A DNA stretch of 64,000 nt from Paracoccus alcaliphilus (GTDB taxonomy: Bacteria > Pseudomonadota > Alphaproteobacteria > Rhodobacterales > Rhodobacteraceae), in contig NZ_CP067124.1 in the NCBI RefSeq assembly GCF_028553725.1, positions 3,296,001 through 3,360,000 of the forward strand, in the 5' to 3' direction. The notes beneath the pieces are model-generated. The model was not told the origin of the DNA, made no database searches, and worked only from the letters and a program-made list of their open reading frames with translations. The translations under genes and the position numbers were made by a program. This document shows, one piece after another, positions 6,517-24,765 of this stretch. Positions within the stretch are counted from its first letter, which is position 1. Each line of letters starts with the position of its first letter.

Positions 6517-6600
6517 GGGCGACGTGCTGCAAGGTGCGGCAGCGGACTGTAACTCCGCCGGGGAGACCCATGCCTGGTTCGATTCCAGGGTCGCCCACCA
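6517..6600 (+). tRNA. tRNA-Tyr (GTA), class II with CCA encoded
   Basis: Acceptor GGGCGAC pairs with GTCGCCC. The anticodon stem GCGGA/TCCGC flanks loop CTGTAAC, giving anticodon GTA. The extended variable arm GGG-GAGA-CCC is typical of bacterial tRNA-Tyr. T-arm CCTGG-TTCGATT-CCAGG, discriminator A, CCA encoded. Its last 58 nt double as the island attachment core, and integration leaves this copy whole. Confidence 0.97.
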
Positions 6601-6602
6601 TT
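6543..6602. repeat. attL core (60-bp direct repeat, left copy)
   Basis: Identical to 24706-24765. It covers the anticodon arm to CCA of tRNA-Tyr plus TT. The base before the repeat differs (G here, A in the right copy), which fixes the edge. Confidence 0.95.
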
Positions 6603-6664
6603 CTTTCAAATCAAAGACTTAGGTGGAACTTCTCGAAACAGTTTAGGCTGTTTTGGACGCGCCG

Positions 6665-6683
6665 TGTAAGCAATATGTAAGCA
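6665..6683 (+). promoter_or_regulatory. Putative integrase arm-type sites, left end
   Basis: Two direct copies of TGTAAGCA (6665-6672 and 6676-6683) are spaced 11 bp apart. A 26-bp block around them recurs with two mismatches at the right end beside the integrase (24571-24596), in the same orientation. Short repeats inside both att ends are the usual arm-binding sites of tyrosine integrases. Confidence 0.6.
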
Positions 6684-6723
6684 GGATGCTTAGATTTCTC
6701 GCGAACATGTGAGGGCTGACAGA

Positions 6724-6751
6724 TTGACTATGTATCACGCCGCGATACATT
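6724..6751 (+). promoter_or_regulatory. higBA promoter with palindromic operator in the spacer
   Basis: A -35 TTGACT (6724-6729) and -10 TACATT (6746-6751) are 16 bp apart. Between and overlapping the -10 is an inverted repeat ATGTATC (6730-6736) / GATACAT (6744-6750), a good HigA autorepressor site. The predicted transcript start falls at about the higB ATG (6758), so the mRNA may be leaderless. Confidence 0.6.
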
Positions 6752-6757
6752 GAAGCC

Positions 6758-7039
6758 ATGTTACAAAGCACCAGAGGAAAGCTGGCCGCCGATGCGGTAA
6801 AGGATCGGTTCGGCAAGGGCTTCCCTTCTGATCTGGTGAAGCGCACCCGTGCGATGCTGTCGGCGCTTCATGCGGCCACTGTGCTTGAAGACCTGCGGTT
6901 TCCTCCGGGAAACCATCTTGAGGAACTGAAAGGCGACCGGGCGGGGCAACATTCCGTCCGCATCAACAAACAATGGCGCATCTGCTTTGTGTGGACGGAA
7001 ACCGGCCCCGCGGATGTCGAAATCGTGGACTACCATTGA
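6758..7039 (+). CDS. higB: HigB-family toxin (RelE/ParE superfamily)
   Basis: 93 aa. The C-terminal part LEELKGDRAGQHSVRINKQWRICFVW...DVEIVDYH is the conserved core of HigB/RelE-type mRNA interferases, which cleave mRNA on the ribosome. The first residues (MLQSTRGKLAADAVKDRF) are less typical than the usual MIKSF start, and a stop at 6725 excludes a longer form from ATG or GTG. Toxin-first order followed by higA is characteristic of this family. Placed just inside attL, it probably stabilises the island against loss. Confidence 0.88.
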   Translation: MLQSTRGKLAADAVKDRFGKGFPSDLVKRTRAMLSALHAATVLEDLRFPPGNHLEELKGDRAGQHSVRINKQWRICFVWTETGPADVEIVDYH

Positions 7040-7052
7040 AAGGGGAATGCCG

Positions 7053-7343
7053 ATGATCGCTCTTACCAATCCGTCGCACCCCGGCGAAGTGCTTGCCGAA
7101 CTGTTCCTGCAACCGCTCGACATGAGCGCGGGCGCGTTGGCCAAGCGTCTGGACGTCCCGCGCACCCGGATAGAACGGCTTGTGAAGGGCGTGACGCCCG
7201 TCACCGCTGACACGGCGCTGCGGCTGTCGGCGTTCTTCGGGAATACCGCCGAATTCTGGATGAACCTTCAGCGTGCCTATGATCTCACCGAAGCGCGCGG
7301 CCATGTGGACGTTTCCGGTATCAAGCCGCTGCAAGCGGCCTGA
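7053..7343 (+). CDS. higA: HigA-family antitoxin
   Basis: 96 aa from the ATG at 7053; an ATG at 7047 is also in frame, but the AGGGG ribosome-binding site is spaced better (7 nt) for 7053. NPSHPGEVLAELFLQPLDMS, the Xre-type helix-turn-helix (AGALAKRLDVPRTRIERLVKG) and FGNTAEFWMNLQRAYDL are the standard HigA blocks. It neutralises HigB and, with it, represses the operon, probably at the inverted repeat 6730-6750. The gap to higB is 13 nt. Confidence 0.92.
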   Translation: MIALTNPSHPGEVLAELFLQPLDMSAGALAKRLDVPRTRIERLVKGVTPVTADTALRLSAFFGNTAEFWMNLQRAYDLTEARGHVDVSGIKPLQAA

Positions 7344-7413: not shown

Positions 7414-7761
7414 TCAGTCGGCCATCTCGCCACAGATTTCTTGCCCCACGATCAGCAGCCGGGCCGCCGCGGCGTCCGCGATCGCCAGCACCGCTTTGCA
7501 CTCATCCGAAAGGGCGGCCAGCGTGTCCGACAGATCGGTCAGGGCTTCCGGGTCGTCCTCGAAGTCGCGGCGCAATTCGTCTTGCGTCTTTGCGACCGTC
7601 AGGGCCGCCATGCGGGCCCGCGCACCGAACAGTCGTTCGCGATCTGCGCTGAATGCCCCCGCCTGCATGGCGACGGCATCGAAATGGGGCTTTTGTGCCT
7701 GCGCGCCGGTGCTTCTGGTTTCCTCGGGCGTGCCGTGGGTGGTATGATCGTTGGTAGCCAT
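7414..7761 (-). CDS. Hypothetical acidic helical protein
   Basis: 115 aa from the ATG at 7761, preceded by AGGAG at 8 nt; the longer in-frame extension crosses the operator repeats and is unlikely. Alanine- and acid-rich, predicted mostly helical, no signal peptide or recognised domain. It is divergent from the small ribbon-helix-helix gene at 7886, and the two share the inverted-repeat region 7836-7885. That protein may therefore control it. No function is assigned. Confidence 0.6.
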   Translation of the reverse strand: MATNDHTTHGTPEETRSTGAQAQKPHFDAVAMQAGAFSADRERLFGARARMAALTVAKTQDELRRDFEDDPEALTDLSDTLAALSDECKAVLAIADAAAARLLIVGQEICGEMAD

Positions 7762-7835
7762 TCGCGATCTCCTGTCGATCGGGTTTCGGTTAGGGCCGGT
7801 TAAGAGGGGCAAACTCTTGCCCGGCCCGCTTCGAT

Positions 7836-7885
7836 CTACTACACTCTCCAACATAATACAACAACATTGTTGGAGAACGTAGTAG
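7836..7885. promoter_or_regulatory. Large inverted-repeat operator between divergent genes
   Basis: Two 18-bp half-sites in inverted orientation, CTACTACACTCTCCAACA (7836-7853) and TGTTGGAGAACGTAGTAG (7868-7885), match at 16 of 18 positions. A 14-bp AT-rich spacer separates them. The right half-site ends exactly one base before the ATG of the ribbon-helix-helix gene, so occupancy would block its transcription or translation start. Confidence 0.65.
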
Positions 7886-8041
7886 ATGGCTAAGGGCGCC
7901 CCGATCGGGTTTCGCATCGACCCCGAAATCAAGGCGGCGCTTGAGGCCGCCGCGAAAGCTGACGATAGATCGGTTTCGTCGCTGGTGACGATCGTCTTGC
8001 GCGACTGGCTGCGCGAAAACGGCCATCTGCCGAAGGACTGA
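7886..8041 (+). CDS. Small ribbon-helix-helix (CopG/Arc-like) regulator
   Basis: 51 aa, MAKGAPIGFRIDPEIKAALE followed by AAAKADDRSVSSLVTIVLRDWLRENGHLPKD. The strand IGFRIDPEIKAALEAAA followed by two helices is the ribbon-helix-helix pattern of CopG-type repressors. The start abuts the operator repeats, and no ribosome-binding site is visible because that sequence is occupied by the repeat. Likely an autorepressor and regulator of the divergent 115-aa gene. It could also be an antitoxin, but no toxin-like partner is adjacent. Confidence 0.7.
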   Translation: MAKGAPIGFRIDPEIKAALEAAAKADDRSVSSLVTIVLRDWLRENGHLPKD

Positions 8042-8056: not shown

Positions 8057-8677
8057 TTAGCGCGGTTCGTCGATCAGTTGCAGCGTCCCGTCGGGCAGCG
8101 GCCGTTGCATGTCCGGCGCGGGATGCCCCGCCAACCATGCCCGCCATTCGTCCGGCCTGGTCAGGATCACCGGCATGGCTTTGGGATGGACGGCCTTCAC
8201 CTCGGAGTTCGGCTCGCAGGTCAGGAACGCAAACAGGTCGTCCTTCGTCTCGCCGTCCTTCACCTTCCGCACCGATCGCCAGTCCCGAACCTCGATGCCG
8301 GCAAAGAACATCTGCGCGTCAGGATCGGCCGCCGCAAACCATTGGTTGCCCCGGCCCTTTCCCAGCGGCTCGGCGAAGCTGGTCAGCGGAACAAGACAAC
8401 GGTTGTCCGGCCCCAGCCATCGGCGCCAATGGGCAGACCCGAGATTGCGCACGTTCGTCACGCCAGGATCACGAGCGGTTTTCAGGACGCTGGGCGGTGA
8501 CGGCATGCCCCAACGCGCTTTGACCAGTTCCGGCCCGTCCGCGCCGTGCCTAACGATCGGCGCCATCTGGTCGGGATAGAACATGCCCGGTTGCAGGTTG
8601 CCCGCTTGATCGGACAGGCTTTCAATGATCCGGCGCATGGCCTCTTGCGTGGACGTGTTGGAATAAAGATTGCACAT
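8057..8677 (-). CDS. SRAP (YedK/HMCES-like) abasic-site protein
   Basis: 206 aa starting MCNLYS, with the invariant catalytic Cys2 that forms a thiazolidine crosslink with abasic sites in single-stranded DNA. Later motifs RCLVPLTSFAEP (glutamate after RC(L/I)VP) and VHPKAMPVIL (histidine) match the SRAP fold. In chromosomes the family is tied to the SOS response. Here it is inside the island, co-oriented and 4 nt after the zinc-ribbon gene upstream, so both are probably co-transcribed. A role in protecting replicating element DNA is plausible but not shown. Confidence 0.92.
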   Translation of the reverse strand: MCNLYSNTSTQEAMRRIIESLSDQAGNLQPGMFYPDQMAPIVRHGADGPELVKARWGMPSPPSVLKTARDPGVTNVRNLGSAHWRRWLGPDNRCLVPLTSFAEPLGKGRGNQWFAAADPDAQMFFAGIEVRDWRSVRKVKDGETKDDLFAFLTCEPNSEVKAVHPKAMPVILTRPDEWRAWLAGHPAPDMQRPLPDGTLQLIDEPR

Positions 8678-9403: not shown

Positions 9404-10147
9404 CTACCAGATAAGCTTGATGCCTGACATCACGAGTAGAAACGACAATATCCCGCGCAGCCAGCGGTCAGATAGAAAACGGCTGCCGATATAGGCCCCG
9501 ATGGTCCCGCCAGCGGCAACAGCAACGAGCCATGCGGGAAGCGATGAGGGGATATGATCCCAAGCGGCATACGCCCCGATTAGCGCCGCGAAGGAGTTTA
9601 TGAGATTGTAAACTGCCGTAGTGGCGGCTGTCTGCCGCGCCGTTCCCCAGTTCATCGTCAGGATAATGGGGGCTAGGAATACGCCGCCGCCTGTGCCGGT
9701 CGTCCCCGAGACGAAACCGATGATTGCCCCCGTGACTAACGCCGCCGCAAAAGGGGGCGTGGCAGGCGCATCCGATCCAGCAGCTTTGCCCATAAACGCT
9801 GTTCGGGCCATCTGAAGCGCAGAAAGGATCAGAACCGCCCCGACCACCGGAAAATAGACGTTCTCGGACAGGTGAACTGCGCCGCCCAGCATCGAGAAGG
9901 GGAAGCCCAGCACAGCGAAGGGCCAGACATTTCGCCATGATAGCCTTCCCGCCCGCAGGAACAGGGCGGTGCCGATGCCGGCAACCAGCAGATTCAGAGA
10001 AAGGGCCGTCGTTTTCATGGCAAGGGGCGCAAAACCTGCCAATCCCATGATGGCGATATAGCCCGAAGCCCCGGCCTGCCCGACCGCCGCATAGATCAGA
10101 GCCGTGGCCAGAAATGCCATCGAGAGCAGAAGTGTTTCGCTGTTCAA
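9404..10147 (-). CDS. TauE/SafE-family sulfite/anion exporter
   Basis: 247 aa, about eight hydrophobic segments. It has the TauE/SafE glycine motif GFVSGTTGTGGGVFLAPI in the middle and a related half-motif near the N-terminus (YAAVGQAGASGYIAIMGLAG), the usual internal duplication. Family members export sulfite, sulfoacetate or related anions across the inner membrane; the substrate here is unknown. A TTG start at 10147 with AAGGGA upstream is better supported than the internal ATG at 10120. It appears to be accessory cargo of the island. Confidence 0.85.
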   Translation of the reverse strand: MNSETLLLSMAFLATALIYAAVGQAGASGYIAIMGLAGFAPLAMKTTALSLNLLVAGIGTALFLRAGRLSWRNVWPFAVLGFPFSMLGGAVHLSENVYFPVVGAVLILSALQMARTAFMGKAAGSDAPATPPFAAALVTGAIIGFVSGTTGTGGGVFLAPIILTMNWGTARQTAATTAVYNLINSFAALIGAYAAWDHIPSSLPAWLVAVAAGGTIGAYIGSRFLSDRWLRGILSFLLVMSGIKLIW

Positions 10148-10939: not shown

Positions 10940-11359
10940 CTATTGCTGAAGATGTGCCGCGCCCTGATCCGGGTCGGTGTTCAGGCGCCTGCCATGTCGT
11001 TTCAAGATCAGCCCCGACATATCGACCAGCCCCGCGATGTAGCGTTGCCGCAGCGCCCGGCCATCAATTTCGGCCAGCGCCGCGACGGTCAGCAACTCGG
11101 GACTGCGCCGCAACCATATGTCCGCATGGCGCCGGACGGGCTCGCGTTCCCCCGCCGTCAGGCCGGTGCCGTATCCTGTGGCGTCCAGCAACGCGGTTTC
11201 GATCACCCGCGCCCATAGCTGACGACAAGCGGCTGCCTCGACGGGGATCGGTGAAACCGGCGACGCGGGCGGCGCGCGCCGGCCGATGCCCCGGACAGGG
11301 ACGGCCCGGCCCGATCGGGCGGGGCCGCCGGAAAGATCAATCTGCACCGATAAATTCAT
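10940..11359 (-). CDS. Hypothetical island protein
   Basis: 139 aa from the ATG at 11359, which overlaps the end of the 999-aa virion-like gene by 23 nt. A proline/arginine-rich N-terminus precedes a helical part with LWARVIETALLDATGYGTGL and ERHADIWLRR-like spacing (EREPVRRHADIWLRRSPELL). No recognised domain. Tight packing with both neighbours supports it as a real gene in the virion-like operon. Confidence 0.6.
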   Translation of the reverse strand: MNLSVQIDLSGGPARSGRAVPVRGIGRRAPPASPVSPIPVEAAACRQLWARVIETALLDATGYGTGLTAGEREPVRRHADIWLRRSPELLTVAALAEIDGRALRQRYIAGLVDMSGLILKRHGRRLNTDPDQGAAHLQQ

Positions 11360-14336
11360 CGAACGCCTGGTCCGCTTCGCTGTAACCGCCCAATTCCTCA
11401 TTCACGATGTTGGCAAGCTGCGGCACGCGCAGCCCATGAGAGCGCAGGAACCGGCGGCCCATCAGTTGCGCATCATAGGGGTTATGTTTGCGCAGCAGCG
11501 CGGCGGCCAGCGTCGGGTCGTCCATTGCCTTGGTCATCAACTCGTTGATCGCGGCGGCCTGCACCTGCCGGGACCGGCCCCGGACCCAGCCCGCCAGCAG
11601 GTGGATGCCTGCGATCGGTTTGGACATCTGGCCGCGCTGGACGGAACGCAGCGTCGAGGAAACCGACGTGGCGGTAAGCGCCGGGTCGATCTTGCCTTGC
11701 AGGCTGATCGAGGCGGTGCCCGACGATGCCGGGGGCTTGGCGCGCAAGGCGCTTTCGCTGTCGATCAGCGCAGAACCAATCTCGCGCAGGTTCTTCAGGT
11801 GGGTTTCGCTGCCCTGCCACAATTCGTCCATGACGGCCTGAACCTTCGGGTTCTTCAGGAAACCATCCAGCACGCGACCATTCCAGACGATATTGCCCGC
11901 CGCGTCGTGGCCGGAATTGGTGGTCGTCCGGGCCATGTCCTCGAAGAAAGCAGCGCGCGCGTTCTTCAGGTTCTGCGGCGATCGTCCGGCCGTATCCAGA
12001 ACCTCCTTGATCGCCTGCCGGGGCTGCGCAGACTTCCACACGCCCCGCATGGCGTCCGCAACGCCCGTATCATCGTGGCGGGTGAACCGGCCAACGGGGG
12101 AATTGCTGCCCGGTGCATAGCGGCCTTCCTGCGCCTTGACGAACGCCTCGGCCTGATCCAGTTGCGTGCGGCTGACGCCTGCGGCCTCCAGCGCGGCGCG
12201 GGCATCGGGGAAATCGTCAAACTGATAGGCCCGCTGGGTCAGAAAGCGGTTCAGGCTGTCCTGATTGCGCAGCGCGCCGGCGTTGCCCGCATCGGCCAGT
12301 ATCTGGTCGCGAACCGCGCCGCGCGTGCCTTCGCGGGTGCCGGTCAGGCGCATCGTGTCGCGGTATCCGGTTTCGCTGCCGGTCACACGCGGCCCGATGG
12401 CCTCTGTCGCCAGTTTCGGCCGATCATGCGCGGTCTGGTCGAGAATGCGCGACGGCAGGTTGCCGTCCTCGAAATCGGCCGCCACCGACCGGCGCAAGCC
12501 GCGCGCGGTTTCATCCAAGGCCCGCGTCTCGGGCGACATGGCGCCGTCAATCTCGCGGCGCAGCGCATCGTTCATGCGTGAAATGGCGCGATGTTCCGGC
12601 GCGCGCCCGGCGGCCAATGCCTCGCGCTGGCGGGTCGTCAGCCCATGCCGCAATGACAGCGCCTCTGACAGCGGGATTTCTGCGGCGACGTCGGGCTGAC
12701 GCATGACCGGGGCGCCGAACATATCGACCAGTCCTGTCGCCTCGGGCGATGATGCGTCCGGGGCGATCCTGCGGGCGGTCCCCATGACATCGGCCGGCAC
12801 ATAGGCGTCCTGTTCATAGGCCGTCATCCGGTCGGCCTCGCCGCGCAGCGCCCGATATGGCGCCCCGGCCTCGATCCGGTCATTCGCCATTGCAGCGTCG
12901 CGGGCCTCATAGGCCTGACGGTATTCGGCGGTGCGCTCGCCGTGCAGGTTCGTCATGTCGTCGCGGATCATCTGGCCGCGGTCGATCGGCTGCATCCGGG
13001 GGCGCACGGCGTCCAATGCGTCATCCAGTTGCGCGCGGGCGGTGCCTGCGGTGCCGCGGGCGCTGTCGATGATCGCGCCTGCACTGTCGCGCACGGTATC
13101 CAGAAAGGCCGGGGCGTTCCCATCGGGGATAAGGCCGCGGATATGATCGCCAACAGCCGACATGTTCCGTTCGCGGCGCATATTGGCCGCTCCCGGCGCC
13201 AGCGCCTCGGTGTTATAGGCCAGCGATCGGATGCCGCTGTCGCCCGCCCTGTCGGCCGTGCCAGCGCGATAACCGGGCACCAGGTTCTCCAGCGCGGTCG
13301 GGTTGTCCAGCCGATCGGCCAGAACATCCGCGTCCAGCGGCCTGCCCGCGAAACGTTCCGCCTGCATGGTGGTCGAATTGTCCACCAGCCTGTCGGCCAC
13401 GGCCTCGCCCGCAATGCTTTCCTGAAAGCGGGGCGATCCGCTGACATGACGGCCGATATTGGCGACAGATCGGCCGATGCCTTCGGCGGCGCCTGCGATA
13501 CCCAGCCCGCCAAGGCCGCCGACAAGATCGGTCCACCACGTCCCGCCGTCGCCGCCGGTGGCCGCGTCATGGGCCATATTGGCCGCTGCGGCGCCCGATC
13601 CTGCGGCCACGGCGCCCGCCATCTCTCGGGTGACTGCGGCGCGGGGGTTGCGCACGAACGGTTCGACCAGGTTGCGGATGCCCTCATGCGTCGCGCGGCG
13701 CACCGCAGGATTGCCGACGAAGTTTTCGCCATAGCGCAGCGCGGCGCCCACCGGCAGGGCCGATGCGCCGACCTCATTGCCGACGCGTTCCGCGAACCGG
13801 CCCGTCTGGGTCTGGGGCTCATAGTCCAGCGCCCCGAAGCCATTGGTGAAGTCCTGCAACGTGACCGGCGCTGTCCGGGTGCCCTCGGGAACGGAAAAGC
13901 CGTCGCCTGCAATCCAGTTATCGAAGGCCGCCCCCGCATCGGTGATCGAGCCGATATCGGGGTAAGCGTCTTCCATGCCGGGGATCAGTTTCGGCAGGTT
14001 CAGCACGCGGGGCAGATTGTTGATGCCATGCACGGCAGCATCGGGAATGGCCGTCACCCCGTCACGAACGCCCTTGGCCCCGGATGCGGCCACGTCCAGA
14101 AACCAGTTGTTGACCGGGTCGTCATCGGTCGCGCCGGGCGCCACGGTGCCATCGGCATAGATCGGCGGGGCGATCAGCGCGGCCTCTTGCTCCAGCGCGG
14201 ACGGCTCGGCGGGTGCCGGTGCGGCCTGCGGCTGGTCGCGCAGCGTTATCGCGATTTCCAGCAACCGGCGCGCATCGTCCGCTTCGCCCGCGGCATCGGC
14301 CTGCCTTGCGGCGGCCATCACTTCGTCAAAGTTCAT
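11337..14336 (-). CDS. Large virion-internal / ejection-like phage protein
   Basis: 999 aa. The N-terminus (MNFDEVMAAARQADAAGEAD DARRLLEIA) resembles the short helical module that opens many podovirus internal or ejection proteins. It is followed by an alanine/glycine-rich region with possible membrane-active helices (LVGGLGGLGIAGAAEG near residue 270) and a long helical C-terminal half. No lytic-transglycosylase or peptidase motif was found. The start overlaps the stop of the upstream 482-aa gene (ATGA). Such proteins sit inside phage heads and escort DNA into the host. The assignment is by architecture and neighbours, not a definite family match. Confidence 0.6.
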   Translation of the reverse strand: MNFDEVMAAARQADAAGEADDARRLLEIAITLRDQPQAAPAPAEPSALEQEAALIAPPIYADGTVAPGATDDDPVNNWFLDVAASGAKGVRDGVTAIPDAAVHGINNLPRVLNLPKLIPGMEDAYPDIGSITDAGAAFDNWIAGDGFSVPEGTRTAPVTLQDFTNGFGALDYEPQTQTGRFAERVGNEVGASALPVGAALRYGENFVGNPAVRRATHEGIRNLVEPFVRNPRAAVTREMAGAVAAGSGAAAANMAHDAATGGDGGTWWTDLVGGLGGLGIAGAAEGIGRSVANIGRHVSGSPRFQESIAGEAVADRLVDNSTTMQAERFAGRPLDADVLADRLDNPTALENLVPGYRAGTADRAGDSGIRSLAYNTEALAPGAANMRRERNMSAVGDHIRGLIPDGNAPAFLDTVRDSAGAIIDSARGTAGTARAQLDDALDAVRPRMQPIDRGQMIRDDMTNLHGERTAEYRQAYEARDAAMANDRIEAGAPYRALRGEADRMTAYEQDAYVPADVMGTARRIAPDASSPEATGLVDMFGAPVMRQPDVAAEIPLSEALSLRHGLTTRQREALAAGRAPEHRAISRMNDALRREIDGAMSPETRALDETARGLRRSVAADFEDGNLPSRILDQTAHDRPKLATEAIGPRVTGSETGYRDTMRLTGTREGTRGAVRDQILADAGNAGALRNQDSLNRFLTQRAYQFDDFPDARAALEAAGVSRTQLDQAEAFVKAQEGRYAPGSNSPVGRFTRHDDTGVADAMRGVWKSAQPRQAIKEVLDTAGRSPQNLKNARAAFFEDMARTTTNSGHDAAGNIVWNGRVLDGFLKNPKVQAVMDELWQGSETHLKNLREIGSALIDSESALRAKPPASSGTASISLQGKIDPALTATSVSSTLRSVQRGQMSKPIAGIHLLAGWVRGRSRQVQAAAINELMTKAMDDPTLAAALLRKHNPYDAQLMGRRFLRSHGLRVPQLANIVNEELGGYSEADQAFDEFIGAD

Positions 14337-16920: not shown

Positions 16921-16936
16921 TATGAGGGATGGTAAA

Positions 16937-17544: not shown

Positions 17545-17874
17545 ATGCACGACGAAAACCAATCTGCCGCACGCCGCGAAGCCTCGACCCTTCTTACCAT
17601 CATGAACGAATTGGCCGAAGCAAAGGCCCAGCGCGATCAACTCGAAATCTGGTGGTCATTGGAAGACTTGGCCGGCTTGGCGCTGGACGCCAGCAATGCG
17701 TCCATTCGGAACCGCGCGCGTCGGATGCTGGACGGTTACCGCGATCAATACCGGGTCGAGGGTTGCACCGATCGCTTCAAGGCTCTCGACGTCTTCTGGA
17801 ACCTGCCGCCCGCACCGTTCCCATATATCGAACCGGCAAACGACGATGCGGCACCGGGGACATGGGCCCTGTAG
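17545..17874 (+). CDS. Hypothetical protein downstream of the resolvase
   Basis: 109 aa, AAGGAC ribosome-binding site, 44 nt after the resolvase in the same direction and probably co-transcribed. An N-terminal helix rich in Ala/Glu (LLTIMNELAEAKAQRDQLEI) is followed by WWSLEDLAGLALDASN and a Pro-rich tail. No known domain. Function unknown. Confidence 0.55.
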   Translation: MHDENQSAARREASTLLTIMNELAEAKAQRDQLEIWWSLEDLAGLALDASNASIRNRARRMLDGYRDQYRVEGCTDRFKALDVFWNLPPAPFPYIEPANDDAAPGTWAL

Positions 17875-17993: not shown

Positions 17994-18335
17994 TTATCCG
18001 AACAGACCGTCTTCGCCGTCCTGGGCCTCCGCATCGAGCGCAGCCGACTGCTTTTGCAGATTGGCAATGTGCGCCTCGCCGTTGCGGATGAATTCGGCCA
18101 GTTCATCGGCCGTCATATCGCCCGGGTTCTTGTCGAGGCCGCCGCCGCCGTCCTTGGTATCGAACAGACCGGCGGCGCGGAATAAGGCCGAGCCGCAGGC
18201 CGCGCGCGCGGGCGCCGGGGCCTTCGGATCGCGGCAGACCTCCAACATCGCCTGAAAGGCAGCCGGGACGCCCTCCAGGTGGATGCGGTCCATGATGTCG
18301 CGCTTGGCGGCGCGGGGGGTTTTCTTTGCGGTCAT
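17994..18335 (-). CDS. TerS-like small phage protein
   Basis: 113 aa from the ATG at 18335, overlapping the stop of the HGGxSTG-type gene upstream (ATGA). RDIMDRIHLEGVPAAFQAML, then DPKAPAPARAACGSALFRAA and GDMTADELAEFIRNGEAHIA, follow the helix-rich layout of small terminase subunits in alphaproteobacterial phages (AxxRxxAxxxLxxxAGL and MTxxEL). No ATPase or nuclease partner (TerL) is present in the island. Satellites often carry a TerS alone to redirect packaging by a helper. The call is by pattern and context, not certain. Confidence 0.5.
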   Translation of the reverse strand: MTAKKTPRAAKRDIMDRIHLEGVPAAFQAMLEVCRDPKAPAPARAACGSALFRAAGLFDTKDGGGGLDKNPGDMTADELAEFIRNGEAHIANLQKQSAALDAEAQDGEDGLFG

Positions 18336-18877
18336 CCGAAAATCCAATCTTCTGCAAGGTGGTCGTCAGCCACGGTTTCGGGTTGTGCCGGCGCCGTGCT
18401 GGCGGCTGCGGCTCGATCGGCGGCCTTGTCGTGTTCCGCCCACCGCGCGCGCGTCTCTGCGTTCTGCTGGCGCTCCAGCTTCTTGCGCTGGCGATACTCG
18501 GGCGTGCCCAGCGGCCGGTCGCGGTGCCATTTGTCATGTGCGGCCCGTTCCTCGGGCGTCATCCGGGCCAGTCGCTTTGCGCGGGCTTCCTGATCCTTGC
18601 GGGCCTTCCACAGCTTTGCCTCTGTTTTCGGCCATGCGTTCGGCGCGGATTTGTCCGGCAATTGCATCCGGTGCCAGTTCTTGCCTTTCGGCGTCTTGCC
18701 GCCATGATATTGGCAACGCCCATTCGCCAACGCCAGATGCCGGCAGGGCTGGCCGCTGTGTTTCGCGATGGCCCCGCATTTGGGCATCAGGTGCCGCTGG
18801 GCCGCCCGGCGGCGCAGAACTTCCCGGCCCGCAGCGATGAGCGCGGGCGGCGCGCTTTTCTTCTTTCGCTCTGTCAT
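18332..18877 (-). CDS. HGGxSTG-type zinc-binding phage-associated protein
   Basis: 181 aa from the ATG at 18877 (GAGGGA upstream). KCGAIAKHSGQPCRHLALAN followed by GRCQYHGGKTP is the Cys/His motif of the HGGxSTG family commonly encoded near terminase genes of alphaproteobacterial prophages. A highly charged helical tail follows (RMTPEERAAHDKWHRDRPLG). The biochemical role is unknown; metal binding through two Cys and one His is likely. It is first gene of a two-gene leftward operon with the TerS-like gene, behind palindrome 18919-18938. Confidence 0.75.
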   Translation of the reverse strand: MTERKKKSAPPALIAAGREVLRRRAAQRHLMPKCGAIAKHSGQPCRHLALANGRCQYHGGKTPKGKNWHRMQLPDKSAPNAWPKTEAKLWKARKDQEARAKRLARMTPEERAAHDKWHRDRPLGTPEYRQRKKLERQQNAETRARWAEHDKAADRAAAASTAPAQPETVADDHLAEDWIFG

Positions 18878-18918
18878 CCGTCGGCGTCCCTCGATGCCAT
18901 AAAATAGAAACAATCTCA

Positions 18919-18938
18919 TGAGGTATAACTATACCACA
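18919..18938. promoter_or_regulatory. 20-bp palindromic operator ahead of the TerS-like operon
   Basis: TGAGGTATAACTATACCACA, with arms GGTATA/TATACC, sits 42 bp upstream of the HGGxSTG-type start. In gene direction it begins TGTGGTAT, the same half-site as in the palindrome 15806-15825. Confidence 0.5.
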
Positions 18939-19155: not shown

Positions 19156-19330
19156 GCTTGCACTTGTGTTTGCAAGTCGGGGCTTTCTACTTGTTTAAAT
19201 AAAATCAATAACTTACAAAGGAACTTGTTCTACTTGCAGGCCACTTGCAGGCCACTTGCACTTGCACTTACTTGCACAATGAAATCAATGACTTAGCCTA
19301 GGTCCGAAATCTACTTGCAGGCGACTTGCA
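19156..19330 (+). repeat. Iteron array, candidate replication origin
   Basis: Seven direct copies of ACTTGCA start at 19232, 19243, 19254, 19260, 19270, 19313 and 19324. Several are exactly 11 bp apart, with unit ACTTGCAGGCC. Upstream are an inverted TGCAAGT (19171) and a degenerate GCTTGCA (19156). An AT-rich stretch (19188-19220) lies between the two groups and could be the unwinding region. The array is adjacent to the primase-helicase gene, as iterons are to the replication protein in P4-like satellites and plasmids. Confidence 0.75.
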
Positions 19331-19472: not shown

Positions 19473-21605
19473 TCAGCCGAATACGCCCACGTCATCGAAA
19501 ACACTGGCCGGATCAACCGGCACGAACTGCGGCACCAGCACTTTTGCCCGCTGACCTGGGCTTGTTTCGACGGTCACGATGCCTTCGGCCACCCAGCCAT
19601 CAACCATTTCCTTTGCCCGATCGGCCTTAATGTCAAAGGCCCGGGCCATGATATAGCGGAAGCGCCGGGTGCGGTCGGTAACATTGTTCGCGTATAGCCA
19701 TCCGCGCCCGGCGTCGTAATCGGCCTTCATAAGCTTCAGAACTTCCGGCGCCTGATCGGGACCGCCCTGCGCGGAAGCATCGGGCTTTCCCTTGTCGATC
19801 TGGTCTGTCCCGATATGGTCGAACACCAGCGACGACGGGATTTCGCCGTCTTCGTCGGCGGGTTCGTCCATGAGGACATGGTGGATCAATCTGTAAGGAT
19901 AGGCGATGTTTTCGGGGCCATCCTTCTGTTTCACGACGGTTATAACACCTTCCAACGAACCTCGGGCACTTTCCATCCGTAGGGTGAAATCCACATCATT
20001 CCCGAAGGTGCCAGACCCCCGCATATTCTTGCTGTCATTCTTTGAGGGGTGATGAACAGCCATCACGCAACCGCCCAGATCACGTTTAAGCCGTCCGCAA
20101 GCGTTCACGAACAAGGATGCATCTGCCTGGCTGTTTTCATCCGCGCCGGCCATCGACTGCGACAACGTATCTACAATTATCAAGCTGGGCCTTGCCGACA
20201 AGCTTCTGGCGGTCCGTATCAGCCTGTCTATATTCTTGCTGTCCTTGAAATTAATCGCCATGTCGATGACGAACAATTTTTCATCCTGATAATCAGTAAC
20301 GCCCCGTGCTTGTAGCCAAGCCTTGATCCGGGGTTTCAGCCCGGACGACCCTTCACCGGCGATATAGATGACGCTGCCGTCACCTGCCGGTTTGATCCTT
20401 CGGCCATGCCATTCCTTGAATTCGTGGACGATCGACATAGCCAAGTCGAAAGCCATGAATGACTTTTTCGACCCGGACGGCCCGAACAGTATCCCGACGC
20501 CTTCTTTAGGCAAGAATTCTTTGACCAAGAAAACCGGGCTCGGCCGGGTAATAATGTCGCTGATCCGCTGGACCGGATAGACGTCTTCGCCATCCTCGAC
20601 GTCGGGGGCTCGATCCCGCTTCGCGATCTGGTCGAAGACAGTGGCCAGCGCCGTGTCGTCGGGGTCGTATTTCGCGGGGAACGGAATGGCGTTTGGGTTT
20701 TCGATCACTTCGAACAAGCCAATCACGCGTTTCGCCTGGTGCTTGTGCGACAACGCGGCCAGATCGGCGCCGGCTTCCTTCGCCAGTTTGAACAGTGTCG
20801 CCGCGGTTACGGGCGCGTGCTGCGAAACTTCAGACTTTCCAAAGCCGGCGAATTTCTCATAGACCAGACCTTCCTTGTAGCGGTGCGGCGCGCGGGCGCT
20901 CCATTCGTCCGCTATCGACACGCCCTCGTCGCCAAACTCATGGTGGATGGCCATCAGCACCGGATACCAATCGTCGTAAGAGACATCCGCGCTGATATGG
21001 GACAGGGCTTCCTCGACCTCGGCCATCGACCGTCCCGACGTTCCGTTCGGGTTGCCGAAAGTCTCGGCCGCCGTGCGCTCGGGGCGCTTCAGCCATTCCG
21101 GCGCCTGTGCGGGCGTCATATCGTTCTGAAACCGATAAACGCCCCCTTCAAATGCGGACGGCTCTGCGAGGATATAGCCCTGATGCTTGCCATCCACGCC
21201 TTTGCAGGGCTTGTCCCGGTAACGGGCGCCCGGCTCGGCCCGGAATATCAGATGCGTGCCACCACGGGCGCTGCGTTGCTCCAGTGTGGCCGGCACATCG
21301 CGACCGACGGCGAAGGTCGGCCATTCGCAATCATCCTTGTAAGCGTCGATGTCCACGGCCACCAGACCGGACAAGGAAAGCGCCAGCCCGATATTGGCAT
21401 CCGGCCATCGCGTCCACCATGCCTTGATCTGATCGGTATCGGTGGACGCATCCTTGTAGCCGTGCCGTGTCAGCGGGCCCTTGGCGTTGGGCTCGACGGG
21501 CAAGACGTGGTAGCCGCGTTCGGCATAGGCCAGTGCGGCGGCGGCGAGACGATCTTCCGGCGTGACGTCGCCGGGGGTTTCATGCGGTTCTGCTGTATCA
21601 GCCAT
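19473..21605 (-). CDS. Bifunctional primase-polymerase / RepA-like helicase
   Basis: 710 aa. The N-terminal Prim-Pol domain (about 15-185) has VAVDIDAY with the catalytic Asp pair (85, 87) and RSARGGTHLIF. A linker with a PriCT-like segment (SYDDWYPVLMAIHHEFGDEG) spans about 190-270. The C-terminal RecA-like ATPase has Walker A GPSGSKKS (375-382) and Walker B LIIVDTLSQSM (about 475), as in AAA_25/RepA helicases. This combined architecture replicates P4-type satellites and related islands. It lies next to the iteron array, its presumed target. Confidence 0.9.
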   Translation of the reverse strand: MADTAEPHETPGDVTPEDRLAAAALAYAERGYHVLPVEPNAKGPLTRHGYKDASTDTDQIKAWWTRWPDANIGLALSLSGLVAVDIDAYKDDCEWPTFAVGRDVPATLEQRSARGGTHLIFRAEPGARYRDKPCKGVDGKHQGYILAEPSAFEGGVYRFQNDMTPAQAPEWLKRPERTAAETFGNPNGTSGRSMAEVEEALSHISADVSYDDWYPVLMAIHHEFGDEGVSIADEWSARAPHRYKEGLVYEKFAGFGKSEVSQHAPVTAATLFKLAKEAGADLAALSHKHQAKRVIGLFEVIENPNAIPFPAKYDPDDTALATVFDQIAKRDRAPDVEDGEDVYPVQRISDIITRPSPVFLVKEFLPKEGVGILFGPSGSKKSFMAFDLAMSIVHEFKEWHGRRIKPAGDGSVIYIAGEGSSGLKPRIKAWLQARGVTDYQDEKLFVIDMAINFKDSKNIDRLIRTARSLSARPSLIIVDTLSQSMAGADENSQADASLFVNACGRLKRDLGGCVMAVHHPSKNDSKNMRGSGTFGNDVDFTLRMESARGSLEGVITVVKQKDGPENIAYPYRLIHHVLMDEPADEDGEIPSSLVFDHIGTDQIDKGKPDASAQGGPDQAPEVLKLMKADYDAGRGWLYANNVTDRTRRFRYIMARAFDIKADRAKEMVDGWVAEGIVTVETSPGQRAKVLVPQFVPVDPASVFDDVGVFG

Positions 21606-21700: not shown

Positions 21701-22150
21701 TCAACCCGTCTGGGGCAGGCCATCGACGTCAAGGATTTCCAGCAGTTCCACGCGGGCCTTTGCGCCTGCCATGCGGGCGGCTTCGGCGTCAGCCATCCGC
21801 TTGATGCGCGCCGGCATCTTGCGATGTTCCACATAGCCCATGCCCTGAATGGCGTAAGCGCCGCAGCCTGCCGCATCGAGGCCAACAGCCAGCGCATAGA
21901 CCGTGTTCGCGACATGTGGCTGTTGACCGGGGAAGCCCAGCGCCTCGCGCTCTGAAACCTGCATGACGAATGATTTGCCGCCGCGGCGGATCAGTTGCGC
22001 AAAAGCCCGTTCCAGGGCGCCGCGCGCCCGGCGGTTGTCCACCGTCACATTCTTCCCGGTTTCATCGCGACCGTAGCACGCGGCGGCCGCCAAAGACGCG
22101 GCGGTTTTGATTTGCGCACCGGAAATCCGGCGTTCGTTTCTATTGAGCAT
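21701..22150 (-). CDS. Hypothetical protein upstream of the primase-helicase
   Basis: 149 aa, basic and helical, with SVKTAA-like repeats near the N-terminus (GAQIKTAASLAAAACYGRDE), ARGALERAFAQLIRRGGKSF and MGYVEHRKMPARIKRMADAE. No known fold recognised. Co-oriented with the primase-helicase (95-nt gap) and the AlpA-like gene, so likely part of the replication operon. Confidence 0.6.
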   Translation of the reverse strand: MLNRNERRISGAQIKTAASLAAAACYGRDETGKNVTVDNRRARGALERAFAQLIRRGGKSFVMQVSEREALGFPGQQPHVANTVYALAVGLDAAGCGAYAIQGMGYVEHRKMPARIKRMADAEAARMAGAKARVELLEILDVDGLPQTG

Positions 22151-22250
22151 TTCTTGCCTCTTTACTTGCGGGCAAGGTGCAAATGGAATATATCAGCATC
22201 AGGAACACTGATAATGGCCGCCGCTCCTTGTCCCAGGGGTGGCGGTTTTC

Positions 22251-22472
22251 TTATTTTGCGGATTGCAAGTTCGCTTCTATAAAAGCGGCGACATCGCTGG
22301 CGCGATAACGGACCAGACGGCCAAACTTGACGTAGGGAATTCTGGCGCCGACCCAACGGTCACGCTCGAACCACTTTTCTGACAAGCGCGTATACTCTGA
22401 TACCTCTTTCTGCGTCATCAGCCGCGGCACGGTTACCGTGGCAGGGTTCAGAGTTGCGGTTTCCTGTTTCAT
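22251..22472 (-). CDS. AlpA/excisionase-like helix-turn-helix protein
   Basis: 73 aa. PRLMTQKEVSEYTRLSEKWF, then IPYVKFGRLVRYRASDVAAF and IEAN, is the HTH_17 (AlpA/MerR-like) pattern in which a helix-turn-helix is followed by a wing with VRYR. Such proteins act as excisionases or as activators of integrase and replication genes in P4-like islands. It sits upstream of the replication gene and near the integrase, which fits either role. Confidence 0.85.
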   Translation of the reverse strand: MKQETATLNPATVTVPRLMTQKEVSEYTRLSEKWFERDRWVGARIPYVKFGRLVRYRASDVAAFIEANLQSAK

Positions 22473-22566
22473 TTTTGTGCCCTTGCTGATTGCCCGTAAT
22501 GGGCGGATGGCAGCATAAGGACATTTAGTTTCTAATTTGGGAACGTGGGGGCTGGTCAGGTTTCGG

Positions 22567-23304
22567 TCAGGTTTCCGGATGGGGTTTCCGCGCGAGAAAC
22601 TCGGCTGTCATTTGTTTTTCAGCCTTAGAGGATCGCCCGCCAGAACGGGGCAATTGAATTTCTTCGGCTATCGATCGCCAGAATGCCTCGAAACTTTCGT
22701 CTGACGCGCCTGGGTAGCTGCGTCGATATTCTTCGGACACCAGGTCGCGCGTCGGTCGGCCGCCTTGCTCTCGCATTTCTCTGACCCAGAATTTGATTTC
22801 GTCACCTGTTGCGCGGCGGCCGTGGCGCAATTCATAAAGATCAGTTTTGCACGCCTGCCGGTCAAGCACGATCGGGCACCCGATAAAAGGACCGTGGCGG
22901 GCCGCGTGCTGAACTTCGCTTTCGTCCAGCCAATCTTCGGGTCCGCTGAAATCCTCCGGCTCGACCGCCCAACGTGCGGAACCAACCGTCCCGATTGTCA
23001 GGTCAAGCGCCATACCGACGGGCTGGGCCGGTTGGCACACCGTAAAGAGGGAAGGCCAAGCGGGAACGGTTGCGCCGCTGCCCAGCAGCACCCACGCGCG
23101 CCCCTGCGCGTGCTGCTGCACCAGGAAGGGCCAGACACGTTCGCAGGCCGACGCGGACAATGCGTGCTCATGTGCCTCGCGCGCTGCACATGCCGCGAAA
23201 ATGTTGTCTGTCTCCGGTTCCTCGAAGGGCCGCGTATCGCGCAACGCCTCGATCACGCTTTCCATGAATTGCTGAACGTGAACCCATCCCGTTGCGCCCG
23301 TCAT
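22567..23304 (-). CDS. Hypothetical protein coupled to the integrase
   Basis: 245 aa. The start overlaps the integrase stop (ATGA), implying translational coupling. Contains CERVWPFLVQQHAQGRAWVL, RRATGDEIKFWVREMREQGG and a basic C-terminus. No signal peptide or known catalytic motif. It may assist integration/excision or act as a regulator, but nothing specific can be shown. Confidence 0.6.
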   Translation of the reverse strand: MTGATGWVHVQQFMESVIEALRDTRPFEEPETDNIFAACAAREAHEHALSASACERVWPFLVQQHAQGRAWVLLGSGATVPAWPSLFTVCQPAQPVGMALDLTIGTVGSARWAVEPEDFSGPEDWLDESEVQHAARHGPFIGCPIVLDRQACKTDLYELRHGRRATGDEIKFWVREMREQGGRPTRDLVSEEYRRSYPGASDESFEAFWRSIAEEIQLPRSGGRSSKAEKQMTAEFLARKPHPET

Positions 23305-24560
23305 TCCTCGGCCTCCGCTTTTTCCTCTGGTGCCCGCAGCATGTGGTTTTCGATCTTCTGCATGGCCTCGCGCAGATCATCGAATTCCACATCCACATAG
23401 TCCGCGGTCACATCGTTGCCGCTGATGTGGTTGGTCAGACGCTTCACCTTGTAGGACGATATGTCCAGCTTGCTGGCGATGCTGGCGAAGGTGCGGCGCA
23501 GGTCATGGGCCGTCACCCATAACCCGGTGGCCGTCTCCAGTCGCTTCAATGCCGGCCGCAAGCTGAACGGCAAGGTGCCATCGGCCGCGCTGAAAACGAA
23601 CTCGGCCCCAGCCCGCTTCTGGCGGTCCTTCAGCAGCGCCCTAAGCTGCGACGGCAAGGGCAATTCGTGATCCAGCCGGTTCTTGGTATCGGGGAACGTC
23701 ACCTTGTCCTGTCGGAAATCCACGGCCGACCATCGCAAGGGCTCGTATCCGTCCGGTTTCGAGCCCAGCAACTCGCCGATGCGCGCGCCGGTCAGCAGCA
23801 TGAACAGCAGCGCGTCGCGCATCTCTGATCCATGCGCCATGTCGTCCAGGCCGGTTTTCACGGCCTCGACCCACTCGGGAATGATCCGATCGGGGATGCG
23901 GCCCTTGGCCGGGCGCACATCGGCCCATTGGTTCGTCCGGTTCAACCGCGTGACCGGGTTGGTCTTGACGATCGGCGCCGCGCCTTCGTCGGTATCTGCG
24001 ATCAGGTTGTTGATGGCCGCGCGGAAATACCGGAATGCCAGATTGGCCTGTGCCGGGCTGTCCTTGGCAATTTCCGCATGCCGTTCCTTCACCATGCTTT
24101 CGGTGATGTCGGTGACGGGCCGGGCCATCCAGTCGGGAAACTTGCGCTGCATAACCACGCGGATGTCGCGCTGCGTGCGGGCCTTCTTCAGCGCGCCCTT
24201 GCCGACCCCCTTCTTTTTCGGGGCGGCGATATAGGCCTCCATCGCTTCCGCCAGCGTGGTGGCCGCTCGGGCCTTGGCATCCCGCGCCTGCACCGGGTCC
24301 ACTCCTTCCGCGAACTCGGCCGCCAGCACCGTGGCCTTCTTGCGGGCCGCCTCGGCGCTCATGTCGTCGGCCCGGCCGATCGTGACGCGGCGGGTCTTCG
24401 CCCCTGCCCTGCGCTGCATGATATACGCCTTCACGCCGCCCGGCGCGACGCGCAGACCGAAGCCGCGAATTTCGGTATCCCAGACCAGCACCTGCCGGGC
24501 GCCGTCCGCCTCGATCGCGGCCACGCTGGCCTTGGTCAGCTTCATTCTGTTTTGGCTCAT
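23301..24560 (-). CDS. int: Tyrosine site-specific integrase (P4/DUF4102 type)
   Basis: 419 aa. An N-terminal arm-binding domain (LVWDTEIRGFGLRVAPGGVK) is followed by a SAM-like core-binding domain and the catalytic domain with GARIGELL (Arg), HDLRRTFAS (His-x-x-Arg) and ISGNDVTADYVDV (Tyr nucleophile). P4-type integrases use tRNA 3' ends. The gene lies 145 bp inside attR and reads away from it. Arm-site repeats (24572-24590) lie directly before its start, so it is likely autoregulated. It would recombine the 60-bp tRNA-Tyr core. Confidence 0.95.
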   Translation of the reverse strand: MSQNRMKLTKASVAAIEADGARQVLVWDTEIRGFGLRVAPGGVKAYIMQRRAGAKTRRVTIGRADDMSAEAARKKATVLAAEFAEGVDPVQARDAKARAATTLAEAMEAYIAAPKKKGVGKGALKKARTQRDIRVVMQRKFPDWMARPVTDITESMVKERHAEIAKDSPAQANLAFRYFRAAINNLIADTDEGAAPIVKTNPVTRLNRTNQWADVRPAKGRIPDRIIPEWVEAVKTGLDDMAHGSEMRDALLFMLLTGARIGELLGSKPDGYEPLRWSAVDFRQDKVTFPDTKNRLDHELPLPSQLRALLKDRQKRAGAEFVFSAADGTLPFSLRPALKRLETATGLWVTAHDLRRTFASIASKLDISSYKVKRLTNHISGNDVTADYVDVEFDDLREAMQKIENHMLRAPEEKAEAEE

Positions 24561-24571
24561 GCCGCCCCGCG

Positions 24572-24590
24572 TGTAAGCAATTTGTAAGCA
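24572..24590 (+). promoter_or_regulatory. Putative integrase arm-type sites, right end
   Basis: TGTAAGCA at 24572-24579 and 24583-24590, 11 bp apart, match the left-end pair with two mismatches over 26 bp. An inverted TGCTTACA lies at 24663-24670, between this pair and the attR core. The pair begins 11 bp upstream of the integrase start codon. Confidence 0.6.
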
Positions 24591-24705
24591 CGATGCAGAG
24601 AAACAGCGCGTGCTGATGGCTGATACTTAGAACAAAAACAGACGCAATATCAAGATAATAAGTGCTTACACGGCGCCCAAAGTAAGCTTGAGAAGCCATA
24701 GAAAA

Positions 24706-24765
24706 CGGACTGTAACTCCGCCGGGGAGACCCATGCCTGGTTCGATTCCAGGGTCGCCCACCATT
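24706..24765. repeat. attR core (60-bp direct repeat, right copy)
   Basis: Identical to 6543-6602. It is only the 3' part of tRNA-Tyr (58 nt) plus TT, and lacks the acceptor and D-arm 5' half, so it cannot form a tRNA. Confidence 0.95.

Follow-up and report, generated by a model that had tools for sequence, protein, structure and literature searches.

An 18-kb tRNA-Tyr island of Paracoccus alcaliphilus carries two ejection-type phage genes and may be a satellite reduced from a short-tailed phage

Borders and gene content of the island

The window analysed here is a stretch of 64,000 nt from the genome of Paracoccus alcaliphilus (contig NZ_CP067124.1). ARAGORN placed a tRNA-Tyr gene at positions 6517-6600 of the window, and the 3' end of this gene recurs as a perfect 60-bp repeat on the far side of an island of about 18 kb. 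With up to 3 mismatches allowed, a search for 28 bases from the end of the tRNA gene hit the two att places and no others, against a mean of 0 in shuffled sequences. Two imperfect repeats within the island are possibly arm-type sites of the integrase, a function that we infer. The features of the borders and of integration are as follows.

6543..6602, + strand: attL, the 3' end of tRNA-Tyr (perfect 60-bp direct repeat)
24706..24765, + strand: attR, second copy of the tRNA-Tyr 3' end (perfect 60-bp direct repeat)
6663..6694, no strand assigned: possible integrase arm-type site (repeat family D9, 88% to 24570-24601)
24570..24601, no strand assigned: possible integrase arm-type site, partner of 6663-6694
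23301..24560, - strand: tyrosine integrase (Pfam Arm-DNA-bind_3 and Phage_integrase; PHROG)
22567..23304, - strand: ORF overlapping the integrase gene, no match over the cut-off
22251..22472, - strand: AlpA-like regulator/excisionase (HTH_17, E 5.8e-7; PHROG 66, E 4e-6)

The remaining features, apart from the phage-related genes treated below, concern replication, resolution and cargo.

19473..21605, - strand: replication protein with Prim-Pol, PriCT_2 and AAA_25 (Pfam)
21701..22150, - strand: small protein adjoining the primase (35% over 54 aa in genome G313)
19232..19330, + strand: iteron cluster, candidate origin (7 x ACTTGCA; TRF)
16922..17500, + strand: serine resolvase (PF00239, E 1.7e-43)
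16805..16921 (approximate limits), no strand assigned: TGAGACA-type sites ahead of the resolvase (by eye, no statistic)
17545..17874, + strand: protein adjoining the resolvase (70% over 104 aa in genome G200)
6758..7343, + strand: higBA-like toxin-antitoxin pair, cargo (PHROG 3066, E 1.7e-26; PHROG 1381, E 6.8e-25)
7414..7932, - strand: small protein with a relative in the sister island of G313 (64% over 89 aa)
8057..8677, - strand: SRAP-family protein, cargo (PF02586, E 3.5e-17; PHROG 1599, E 5e-32)
9404..10147, - strand: TauE/SafE-type permease, cargo (PF01925, E 5.6e-26)

The tRNA repeats, integrase, AlpA-like regulator, Prim-Pol helicase, iteron array, serine resolvase and higBA pair had all been named in a preliminary description made from the sequence, and each of them was borne out by the analysis above. 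The window contains 10 exact copies of the motif ACTTGCA, with 4.2 expected for its whole length, and 7 of the 10 lie on one strand within the iteron cluster, where TRF reported 2.6 copies of an 11-mer. PADLOC returned nothing for ten other small or uncharacterised ORFs.

The same description had ascribed to the island a combination of satellite and plasmid logic, of which the plasmid part turned out to be weak. An integrated plasmid-like element with an unknown way of moving, in which the phage-related genes would be incidental, is suggested by the replication protein, the iterons, the resolvase and the toxin-antitoxin pair. Against it, no partition or mobilisation family was found among 30 ORFs scanned against Pfam, none of the 156 plasmid records matching the Prim-Pol protein covers 80% of it, and the island shares its gene order with a phage (see below). 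We consider this explanation very improbable. Relatives of the primase are present in 23 of the 125 genomes of the genus (28-48% over the matched part, the island's own copy excepted); three of these loci that were fetched (G259, G238 and G277) hold no zinc-motif, TerS-like or ejection genes, and a scan of IMG/VR with the single primase sequence gave no relative.

Two ejection-type genes

The two largest genes of the island are both open and are joined by an ATGA overlap.

14333..15781, - strand: first ejection-type virion protein, gp15-like position, 482 aa (RHph_N65 match)
11337..14336, - strand: second ejection-type virion protein, gp16-like position, 999 aa (phage-record homology, synteny)

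The first product matches a 'putative injection protein' of phage RHph_N65 (E 7e-20) and is present in 11 IMG/VR records, in 10 of which a gp14-like protein lies upstream, the exception being record L034. An alignment of the second product with its relative in phage record L031 gives 33% identity across 927 columns, and further relatives occur in L030, L032 and L035; in all four records the second protein follows the first. The second product is 75% identical to a protein in genome G222. EVC08_011 of RHph_N65 is a counterpart by position alone, with a best BLASTP alignment of no more than 28 residues (E 0.007), and no sequence kinship is recognisable between the second protein of the window and the counterparts in RHph_N65 or L034. 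For the pair, both homology and synteny to the ejection operon of short-tailed phages were found. The sizes and order of such operons in the available part of PMC8954989 fit the island pair, and gp15-like proteins are there mostly matched by size and synteny. On this sequence evidence, we identified the two products as predicted ejection-type virion proteins of RHph_N65-like phages. The layout of the ejection operon also points to RHph_N65 and its relatives being short-tailed.

Neither large protein had a match over the cut-off in Pfam or PHROG; a single Pfam hit of the first (TruB_C, E 0.007) stayed below the threshold. When 10 aligned relatives of each were scanned, an unnamed PHROG was matched by 2 relatives in the case of the first protein and by 1 in that of the second. 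Sequence searches of PDB with alignments of either protein gave no match up to E 1. In the fold search with the second protein no PDB match was obtained at E <=0.001; of 55 viral matches at that threshold, the 50 in the list have either no name or a name other than ejection protein. The structure model of the first protein was unusable (pLDDT 43). Scans of IMG/VR with the single sequence of the first protein and with a two-row alignment of the second gave no relative. The first protein is rare among bacterial genomes, being found in 2 of 198 genomes of the family, 2 of 125 of the genus and 2 of 385 of the class, with the own genome counted each time. The scans with this protein brought up the genomes G126 (partial, E 0.004) and G913.

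Comparison with phage RHph_N65

To the extent that head genes resemble a model or RHph_N65 (others would escape these scans), no capsid, portal or large terminase gene was detected by Pfam (30 ORFs, with the exact ORF 17994-18347 left out; E up to 0.05) or PHROG (20 ORFs). The preliminary description had stated that virion genes are lacking. Within the reach of these scans this holds for capsid, portal and large terminase, but in substance it is wrong, as the island has two intact genes of the ejection type.

The 293 ORFs of RHph_N65 (>=60 aa) were compared with six islands or blocks. In the island of the window only three matches were obtained at E <=0.001: the first ejection protein, the helicase-primase, which matches the replication protein over residues 328-685 (E 2e-51), and one antisense overlap. 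On the circular map of RHph_N65 the island is colinear with the phage in the order ejection pair, integrase, helicase and TerS, and the block from the large terminase to the gp14-like protein is missing; the serine resolvase occupies its place. That the gene order of the island differs from that of the phage was considered and rejected, as the circular order agrees. Because the island is colinear with the phage genome minus the head block, its descent from a phage is likely. All 7 phage records tested, out of the 11 with the first ejection protein, encode the N65-type large terminase; it was not found in the own genome, in G222 or in the record of L034. The gp14-like protein was found neither in the window nor at the loci of G222, G313, G219, G200 and L034.

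The zinc-motif and TerS-like genes

17994..18347, - strand: TerS-like protein (RHph_N65 EVC08_056, tblastn E 2e-6)
18332..18919, - strand: zinc-motif protein, coupled to the TerS-like gene (motif; 40-60% identity)

A TerS-like gene without a large terminase had been claimed before, and this stands, though the TerS match is weak and the large terminase is missing only as far as the scans reach. The probable start of the TerS-like gene is at 18335, where its ATG shares bases with the stop codon of the zinc-motif gene, and its product lacks the N-terminal region of the phage counterpart. EVC08_056 itself has a weak match to Terminase_2 (E 0.012), and the PHROG scan of ORF 17994-18347 gave no match. 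Identities of the TerS-like protein are 46% to G313, 48% to G200, 30% to G219 and 31% to L034. The neighbouring motif, C-x10-C-x9-C-x2-H-GG-x-TPKG, is present in 5 of 5 islands or blocks.

The zinc-motif protein had no tblastn match in the phage collection, and a scan of IMG/VR with its alignment found the record of L034 only. A scan of genome contigs gave 3 matches, all confined to about 33 residues. Among 292 genomes of the order a match was obtained in 14, strong in 2 (the own genome and G313). Of ten ORFs near 4 of the other 12 matches, 4 matched a family, none of which was a packaging gene; a packaging role of the zinc motif is therefore proposed from its position next to the TerS-like gene.

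Related islands

Sister islands were found at the same site, tRNA-Tyr, in two other species (G313 and G219), and a partial third one in G200. The two with both ends known are 15.3 and 9.1 kb long and thus shorter than the island of the window. A longer version of the tRNA-Tyr island with capsid, portal and terminase, named beforehand as the observation that would mark a degraded prophage, was not found. The integrase is 76% and 81% identical to those of G313 and G219, the AlpA-like regulator 56% and 63%. The resolvase is 87% identical in G313 and G200 and has a 30% identical counterpart at the same place in L034; TGAGACA-type sites similar to those of the window precede the G313 resolvase in a comparison by eye. 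All three sisters have the zinc-motif gene adjoining the TerS-like gene, and no relative of the RHph_N65 head genes was seen in G313 and G219. In all three the first ejection gene is absent and the second is truncated, so that the last 287, 619 and about 100 residues (C-terminal) are kept. G222 has a damaged ejection pair beside a tyrosine integrase, with neither zinc-motif nor TerS-like gene.

The block in L034 shows the same gene order with a full ejection pair from another phage lineage; p-AU values of 4.9e-5 and 3.2e-5 indicated that the pairs of the window and of L034 are independent. No att repeat was found for this block. Its record holds a different, unrelated podophage-type prophage across tRNA-Ser, and the suggestion that the whole record is without head genes was rejected. 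The excisionase-like gene of RHph_N65 is held in common with G219 and L034 only.

These comparisons bear on two further explanations. The main rival to a satellite is a mosaic, decaying island, i.e. an integrative element that took up a piece of an N65-like prophage and in which the ejection genes are leftovers with no role. The losses in the sisters, the damaged pair of G222 apart from the core genes, and the cargo (higBA, SRAP, TauE) would fit. It would not lead one to expect that both ejection genes are open and overlapping in the window, that the same order recurs in L034 with a pair from another lineage, or that the rough dN/dS of the second protein is low (0.12-0.24, a range shared by other core genes), although some of the divergence behind this value is older than the truncations in the sisters. 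We regard the mosaic island as unlikely.

Alternatively, an N65-like phage may have lost its head block in tRNA-Tyr and become an immobile, plainly defective prophage, the shorter sisters being later stages of decay. As regards degradation, the gene order equals that of the phage minus the head block, and the ejection genes are open in the window, with truncation in the sisters. What speaks against it is that the N-terminally shortened TerS-like gene has as its partner the gene of a zinc-motif protein for which tblastn gave nothing in the phage collection; that this pair is retained in 5 of 5 islands or blocks, with a dN/dS of about 0.28 for the zinc-motif protein, which would be unexpected if packaging had been lost; and that a single head-less architecture is shared by three species at the same site and turns up once more in L034. 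This second explanation seems improbable, more so than the mosaic island.

A possible satellite reduced from a phage

The satellite part of the earlier proposal is supported by the same-site sisters, the zinc-motif and TerS-like pair, and the want of relatives of the N65 head genes. We suggest, with a probability of roughly 0.5, that the island is a phage satellite derived through reduction from a short-tailed phage of the N65-like type. The truncated sisters, the damaged pair of G222, the weak TerS match and the lack of an N65-type helper in the own genome are points against it. If the satellite reading is right, the island would excise and replicate from its iterons when a short-tailed helper is active. 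The zinc-motif protein and the TerS-like subunit would replace the small terminase of the helper and bring island DNA to its large terminase and procapsid. The two ejection proteins would be built into the particle, either replacing those of the helper or alongside them, with the gp14-like protein supplied by the helper, and would make up the inner section of the channel for DNA in the next cell.

According to the available part of PMC10883804, the exclusion protein SieA, which the resident prophage places in the inner membrane, is overcome in P22 by changes in gp20 and gp16. By analogy, a satellite entering cells that hold its helper might possibly profit from its own version of the ejection proteins. 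More tentatively, and with the odds against it, the islands could belong to an alphaproteobacterial satellite family which arose from N65-like phages by loss of the head block and which builds chimeric virions: a two-part small terminase would redirect helper packaging, and an own ejection pair, taken from at least two phage lineages, would be swapped in, with the gp14-like protein left to the helper, in order to enter cells closed to superinfection by the helper.

A search for a helper prophage with a terminase matching the TerS-like protein had been proposed; in the own genome N65-type TerL was not found. Distant relatives of this TerL (33-38%) are found in 4 of 384 genomes of the family at E <=1e-40. 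The own genome has a different terminase together with a portal gene some 34 kb ahead of the window, as well as a further two portal genes, so that a helper of another kind is possible.

Comparison with known satellites

PICIs have an integrase next to att, an AlpA-type regulator, a primase and their own TerS. The island resembles them in size, in its integrase, AlpA-like regulator and primase, in having a TerS-like gene, weakly matched as it is, and in the absence of a recognised capsid or large terminase gene. It differs in that the TerS-like gene is N-terminally reduced and overlaps the zinc-motif gene, in the two podophage ejection genes, and in its colinearity with a phage. P4-like satellites carry genes of the Psu, Sid and Delta type together with a P4-type integrase, an AlpA-like regulator and a primase-helicase. 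The last three are shared with the island, which, unlike P4-like satellites, has TerS-like and ejection genes; no Psu/Sid/Delta-type family was among the Pfam matches of its 30 ORFs at E <=0.05 with general Pfam models. RHph_N65 and its IMG/VR relatives share with the island the first ejection protein, the AAA_25 helicase-primase, TerS and the circular order, whereas the long records of this type are 46-50 kb and include the large terminase and the gp14-like protein. As in satellites generally, no complete virion gene set was recognised in the island, and the element is conserved in several hosts.

Known satellites take over packaging or, in the case of cfPICI, make capsid. If our reading is true, satellites would also supply parts for delivery, and entry into the next cell would be contested between satellite and helper as well. 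The combination of a head-less island with two ejection-type proteins of short-tailed phages was not met in the literature searched. A cfPICI likewise brings part of its own virion (PMC11389934, available part); the island would bring ejection proteins, in contrast to capsid or terminase, and the cfPICI set of own capsid, portal and terminase was not detected in it. The available part of that paper, which makes no use of the word Alphaproteobacteria, discusses the origin of satellites as an open question. The shared gene order of the island and a phage, with the head block left out, would be a direct case bearing on that question, i.e. reduction of a phage versus assembly from unrelated elements. 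The available text of PMC11773190, in which the words injection and ejection are absent, describes EcCIMP1 as a PICI moved by phage vB_EcoP_Kapi1 and reports similarity between the excisionases of satellite and helper. To judge by its name this helper is probably a podophage, like the helper proposed here for the island.

Organisation of the island in tRNA-Tyr

The 18.2-kb island (window 6543-24765) is bounded on both sides by perfect 60-bp copies of the 3' end of tRNA-Tyr, and its GC content is not distinguishable from that of the flanking DNA. From the integrase end, and mainly on the minus strand, it carries the integrase, an unknown gene, an AlpA-like regulator, a small gene, a replication protein, iterons, a zinc-motif gene and a TerS-like gene. 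Beyond these, the plus strand carries a small gene and then a serine resolvase, after which come two large genes and cargo (a TauE-type permease, an SRAP protein and higBA).

23301-24560, integrase
22251-22472, AlpA-like regulator
19473-21605, Prim-Pol/PriCT_2/AAA_25 replication protein
19232-19330, iteron cluster
18332-18919, zinc-motif gene, overlapping the TerS-like gene
17994-18347, TerS-like gene
14333-15781, minus strand, first large gene (482 aa)
11337-14336, minus strand, second large gene (999 aa)
8057-8677, minus strand, SRAP-family cargo gene, of which phages carry relatives according to PHROG 1599

Just beyond attR lies a recombinase-like ORF (24688-25881, plus strand) with a DUF6538 match and a Phage_int_SAM_1 match below the cut-off. 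It is perhaps a remnant of another element; despite its presence outside attR, no third tRNA-Tyr end was found in the window.

The two large genes resemble phage ejection genes

Neither large protein matched a Pfam or PHROG family above the cut-off. Among 50,697 phage records searched, the sole match to the first protein at E <= 0.001 was a 'putative injection protein' of the Rhizobium phage RHph_N65 (E 7e-20). A two-row alignment of this protein recovered 11 IMG/VR records, and in four of them (L030, L031, L032 and L035) the adjoining gene encodes a relative of the 999-aa protein (26-33% identity over 831-927 columns). The second ejection gene of RHph_N65, EVC08_011, corresponds to the 999-aa protein by place only, with no match in the ORF-against-island comparison. 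A relative of the gp14-like EVC08_009 (242 aa in RHph_N65) lies upstream of the first ejection gene, at most about 0.75 kb away, in 10 of the 11 records, the exception being L034. In a review, the ejection operon consists of genes for a gp14-like protein of about 200 aa, a gp15-like protein of 431-982 aa and then a larger gp16-like protein of 609-1337 aa, and gp15-like proteins are said to be matched mainly via size and synteny (PMC8954989). The layout in the phage records is as described there, and we read the two large island proteins as gp15-like and gp16-like. The predicted structure of the second is all helices (mean pLDDT 65); that of the first was unusable.

Sister islands in the genus

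Matches to the zinc-motif protein at E <= 0.001 were obtained in 8 of 125 genus genomes and were strong in four, namely the genome holding the window, G313, G219 and G200; the comparison covers these four, with the four weaker matches set aside. G313 has a 15.3-kb island in tRNA-Tyr with 60-bp repeats, whose proteins are 76% (integrase), 56% (AlpA), 87% (resolvase), 53% (zinc protein) and 46% (TerS-like) identical to those of the window. Its primase is similar in the first part only (29%), the second ejection protein is represented by its last 287 residues (80%), and no first ejection protein was found in the island. The 9.1-kb island of G219 (a genome 79% complete and 6% contaminated), in tRNA-Tyr with 63-bp repeats, contains an integrase split over two frames (81%), AlpA, the zinc protein and the TerS-like protein, as well as the second ejection protein from residue 381 to 999 (73%). 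At a contig edge G200 retains the zinc protein, the TerS-like protein, a small gene, the resolvase and a C-terminal stretch of about 100 residues from the second ejection protein.

Among the genus genomes compared, the pair is whole in the window only. A damaged pair occurs in G222 (contig C55, 2999-10709), where a tyrosine integrase precedes the second ejection gene, split into two frames (a 766-aa part is 75% identical to the window protein), and the first ejection gene, of which the latter part is present; a tRNA-Ser lies further along and the zinc/TerS-like core is absent. Rough dN/dS values (NG86) for the second protein were 0.24 against G222, 0.14 against G219 and 0.12 against G313, and those against G313 were 0.20 for the integrase, 0.09 for the resolvase and 0.28 for the zinc protein; synonymous sites are almost saturated, and some of the divergence is older than the truncations.

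The motif C-x10-C-x9-C-x2-H-GG-x-TPKG is kept in all five zinc proteins, and in four cases (window, L034, G219 and G313, with G200 as the exception) the stop of the zinc gene overlaps an ATG of the TerS-like gene as ATGA. The TerS-like protein aligns to the TerS of RHph_N65, EVC08_056, past the N-terminal region of the latter, in which its weak Terminase_2 match is located. The zinc protein would supply DNA recognition, and the TerS-like piece would contact the large terminase.

Colinearity with RHph_N65

All 293 RHph_N65 ORFs of at least 60 aa were compared with six islands or blocks. Leaving out overlapping frames and a single short local hit in L034, the only phage genes with a counterpart were the two ejection genes, TerS, the primase-helicase and, in G219 and L034 alone, an excisionase-like gene. 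The 51 and 52 ORFs from parts of the L030 and L031 records yielded additional matches to the ejection genes and the excisionase-like gene, and to nothing else. RHph_N65, recorded as circular, has the following order:

7.3-10.9 kb, ejection genes, then lysin
12.6-13.7 kb, integrase
32.8-34.9 kb, helicase-primase
37.0-37.5 kb, TerS
43.8-45.4 kb, large terminase, then further genes
6.5-7.3 kb, gp14-like gene

The island closed at att reads ejection pair, cargo, integrase, AlpA, helicase, zinc gene, TerS-like gene, resolvase and back to the ejection pair. The circular order is therefore common to both, the island being without the block from the large terminase to the gp14-like gene, and in the window, G313, G200 and L034 the serine resolvase occupies the place of that block. 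This shared gene order suggests that the island arose by reduction of a phage of the N65 kind. A plain defective prophage likewise gains more from it than we first granted; the reading with the best support is that of a satellite derived from a phage by reduction. An RHph_N65-type large terminase was present at 54-70% identity in all seven records tested as phages (L025, L027, L029-L032 and L035; the test left out L026, L028 and L033 of the 11), and absent from L034's record, G222 and the genome holding the window.

The excisionase-like HTH gene (L034 7607-7873, minus; L082 12515-12901, plus; L002 13601-13891, minus; L030 17605-17997, minus) adjoins the integrase in RHph_N65 and L030. Relatives (47-51%) occur in the island of G219 and in the block of L034, a hint that phage and satellite might share control of excision.

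Origin of the ejection pair

L034 (IMGVR_UViG_2582581304_000001) holds a block with the gene order of the island: a gene judged AlpA-like by eye, a helicase of the AAA_25 type, the zinc protein (42%), a TerS-like gene, a serine recombinase and the ejection pair, whose two proteins share 56% and 49% identity with those of RHph_N65. Searches for a gp14-like gene and for att repeats of this block found neither. On the other side of a tRNA-Ser the record carries a podophage-type prophage with a gp3-type packaging protein, terminase, capsid and lysozyme (L070 5412-11719, L071), to which the tyrosine integrase adjoining the tRNA-Ser may belong.

In the trees, RHph_N65 and L027 are the neighbours of the L034 pair; the second protein of the window joins G222, G219 and then L031. 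Constraining the island rows together was rejected for the first protein (window and L034; p-AU 4.9e-5) and for the second (window, G219, L034 and the core-less G222; p-AU 3.2e-5); the first-protein tree is the better test, because that of the second joins two groups homologous by place rather than sequence. These two lineages are compatible with two separate captures of the pair and also with one pair having been replaced.

Possible role of the pair and a possible helper

For P22, the ability to escape SieA, an exclusion protein of the inner membrane, has been mapped to gp16 and gp20, and hybrid virions were built with foreign ejection proteins (PMC10883804); gp20 is the gp15 homologue (PMC8954989). 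By analogy, gp16 and gp20 would be the same two protein kinds as the island pair, which may itself be used in a virion. No satellite with its own ejection proteins is described among the literature matches listed, a scope outside most subscription papers and all preprints, and the literature searched makes no mention of RHph_N65.

No N65-type TerL is present in the genome holding the window. That genome has a Terminase_6N gene beside a portal gene (C1 3260383-3262870), some 34 kb ahead of the window; these two genes, which have counterparts in G313 and G200, may belong to a gene transfer agent or another prophage. Of two further portal genes in this genome, one is interrupted by a stop codon. 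Among 384 family genomes, the nearest TerL relatives were four at E <= 1e-40, with 33-38% identity.
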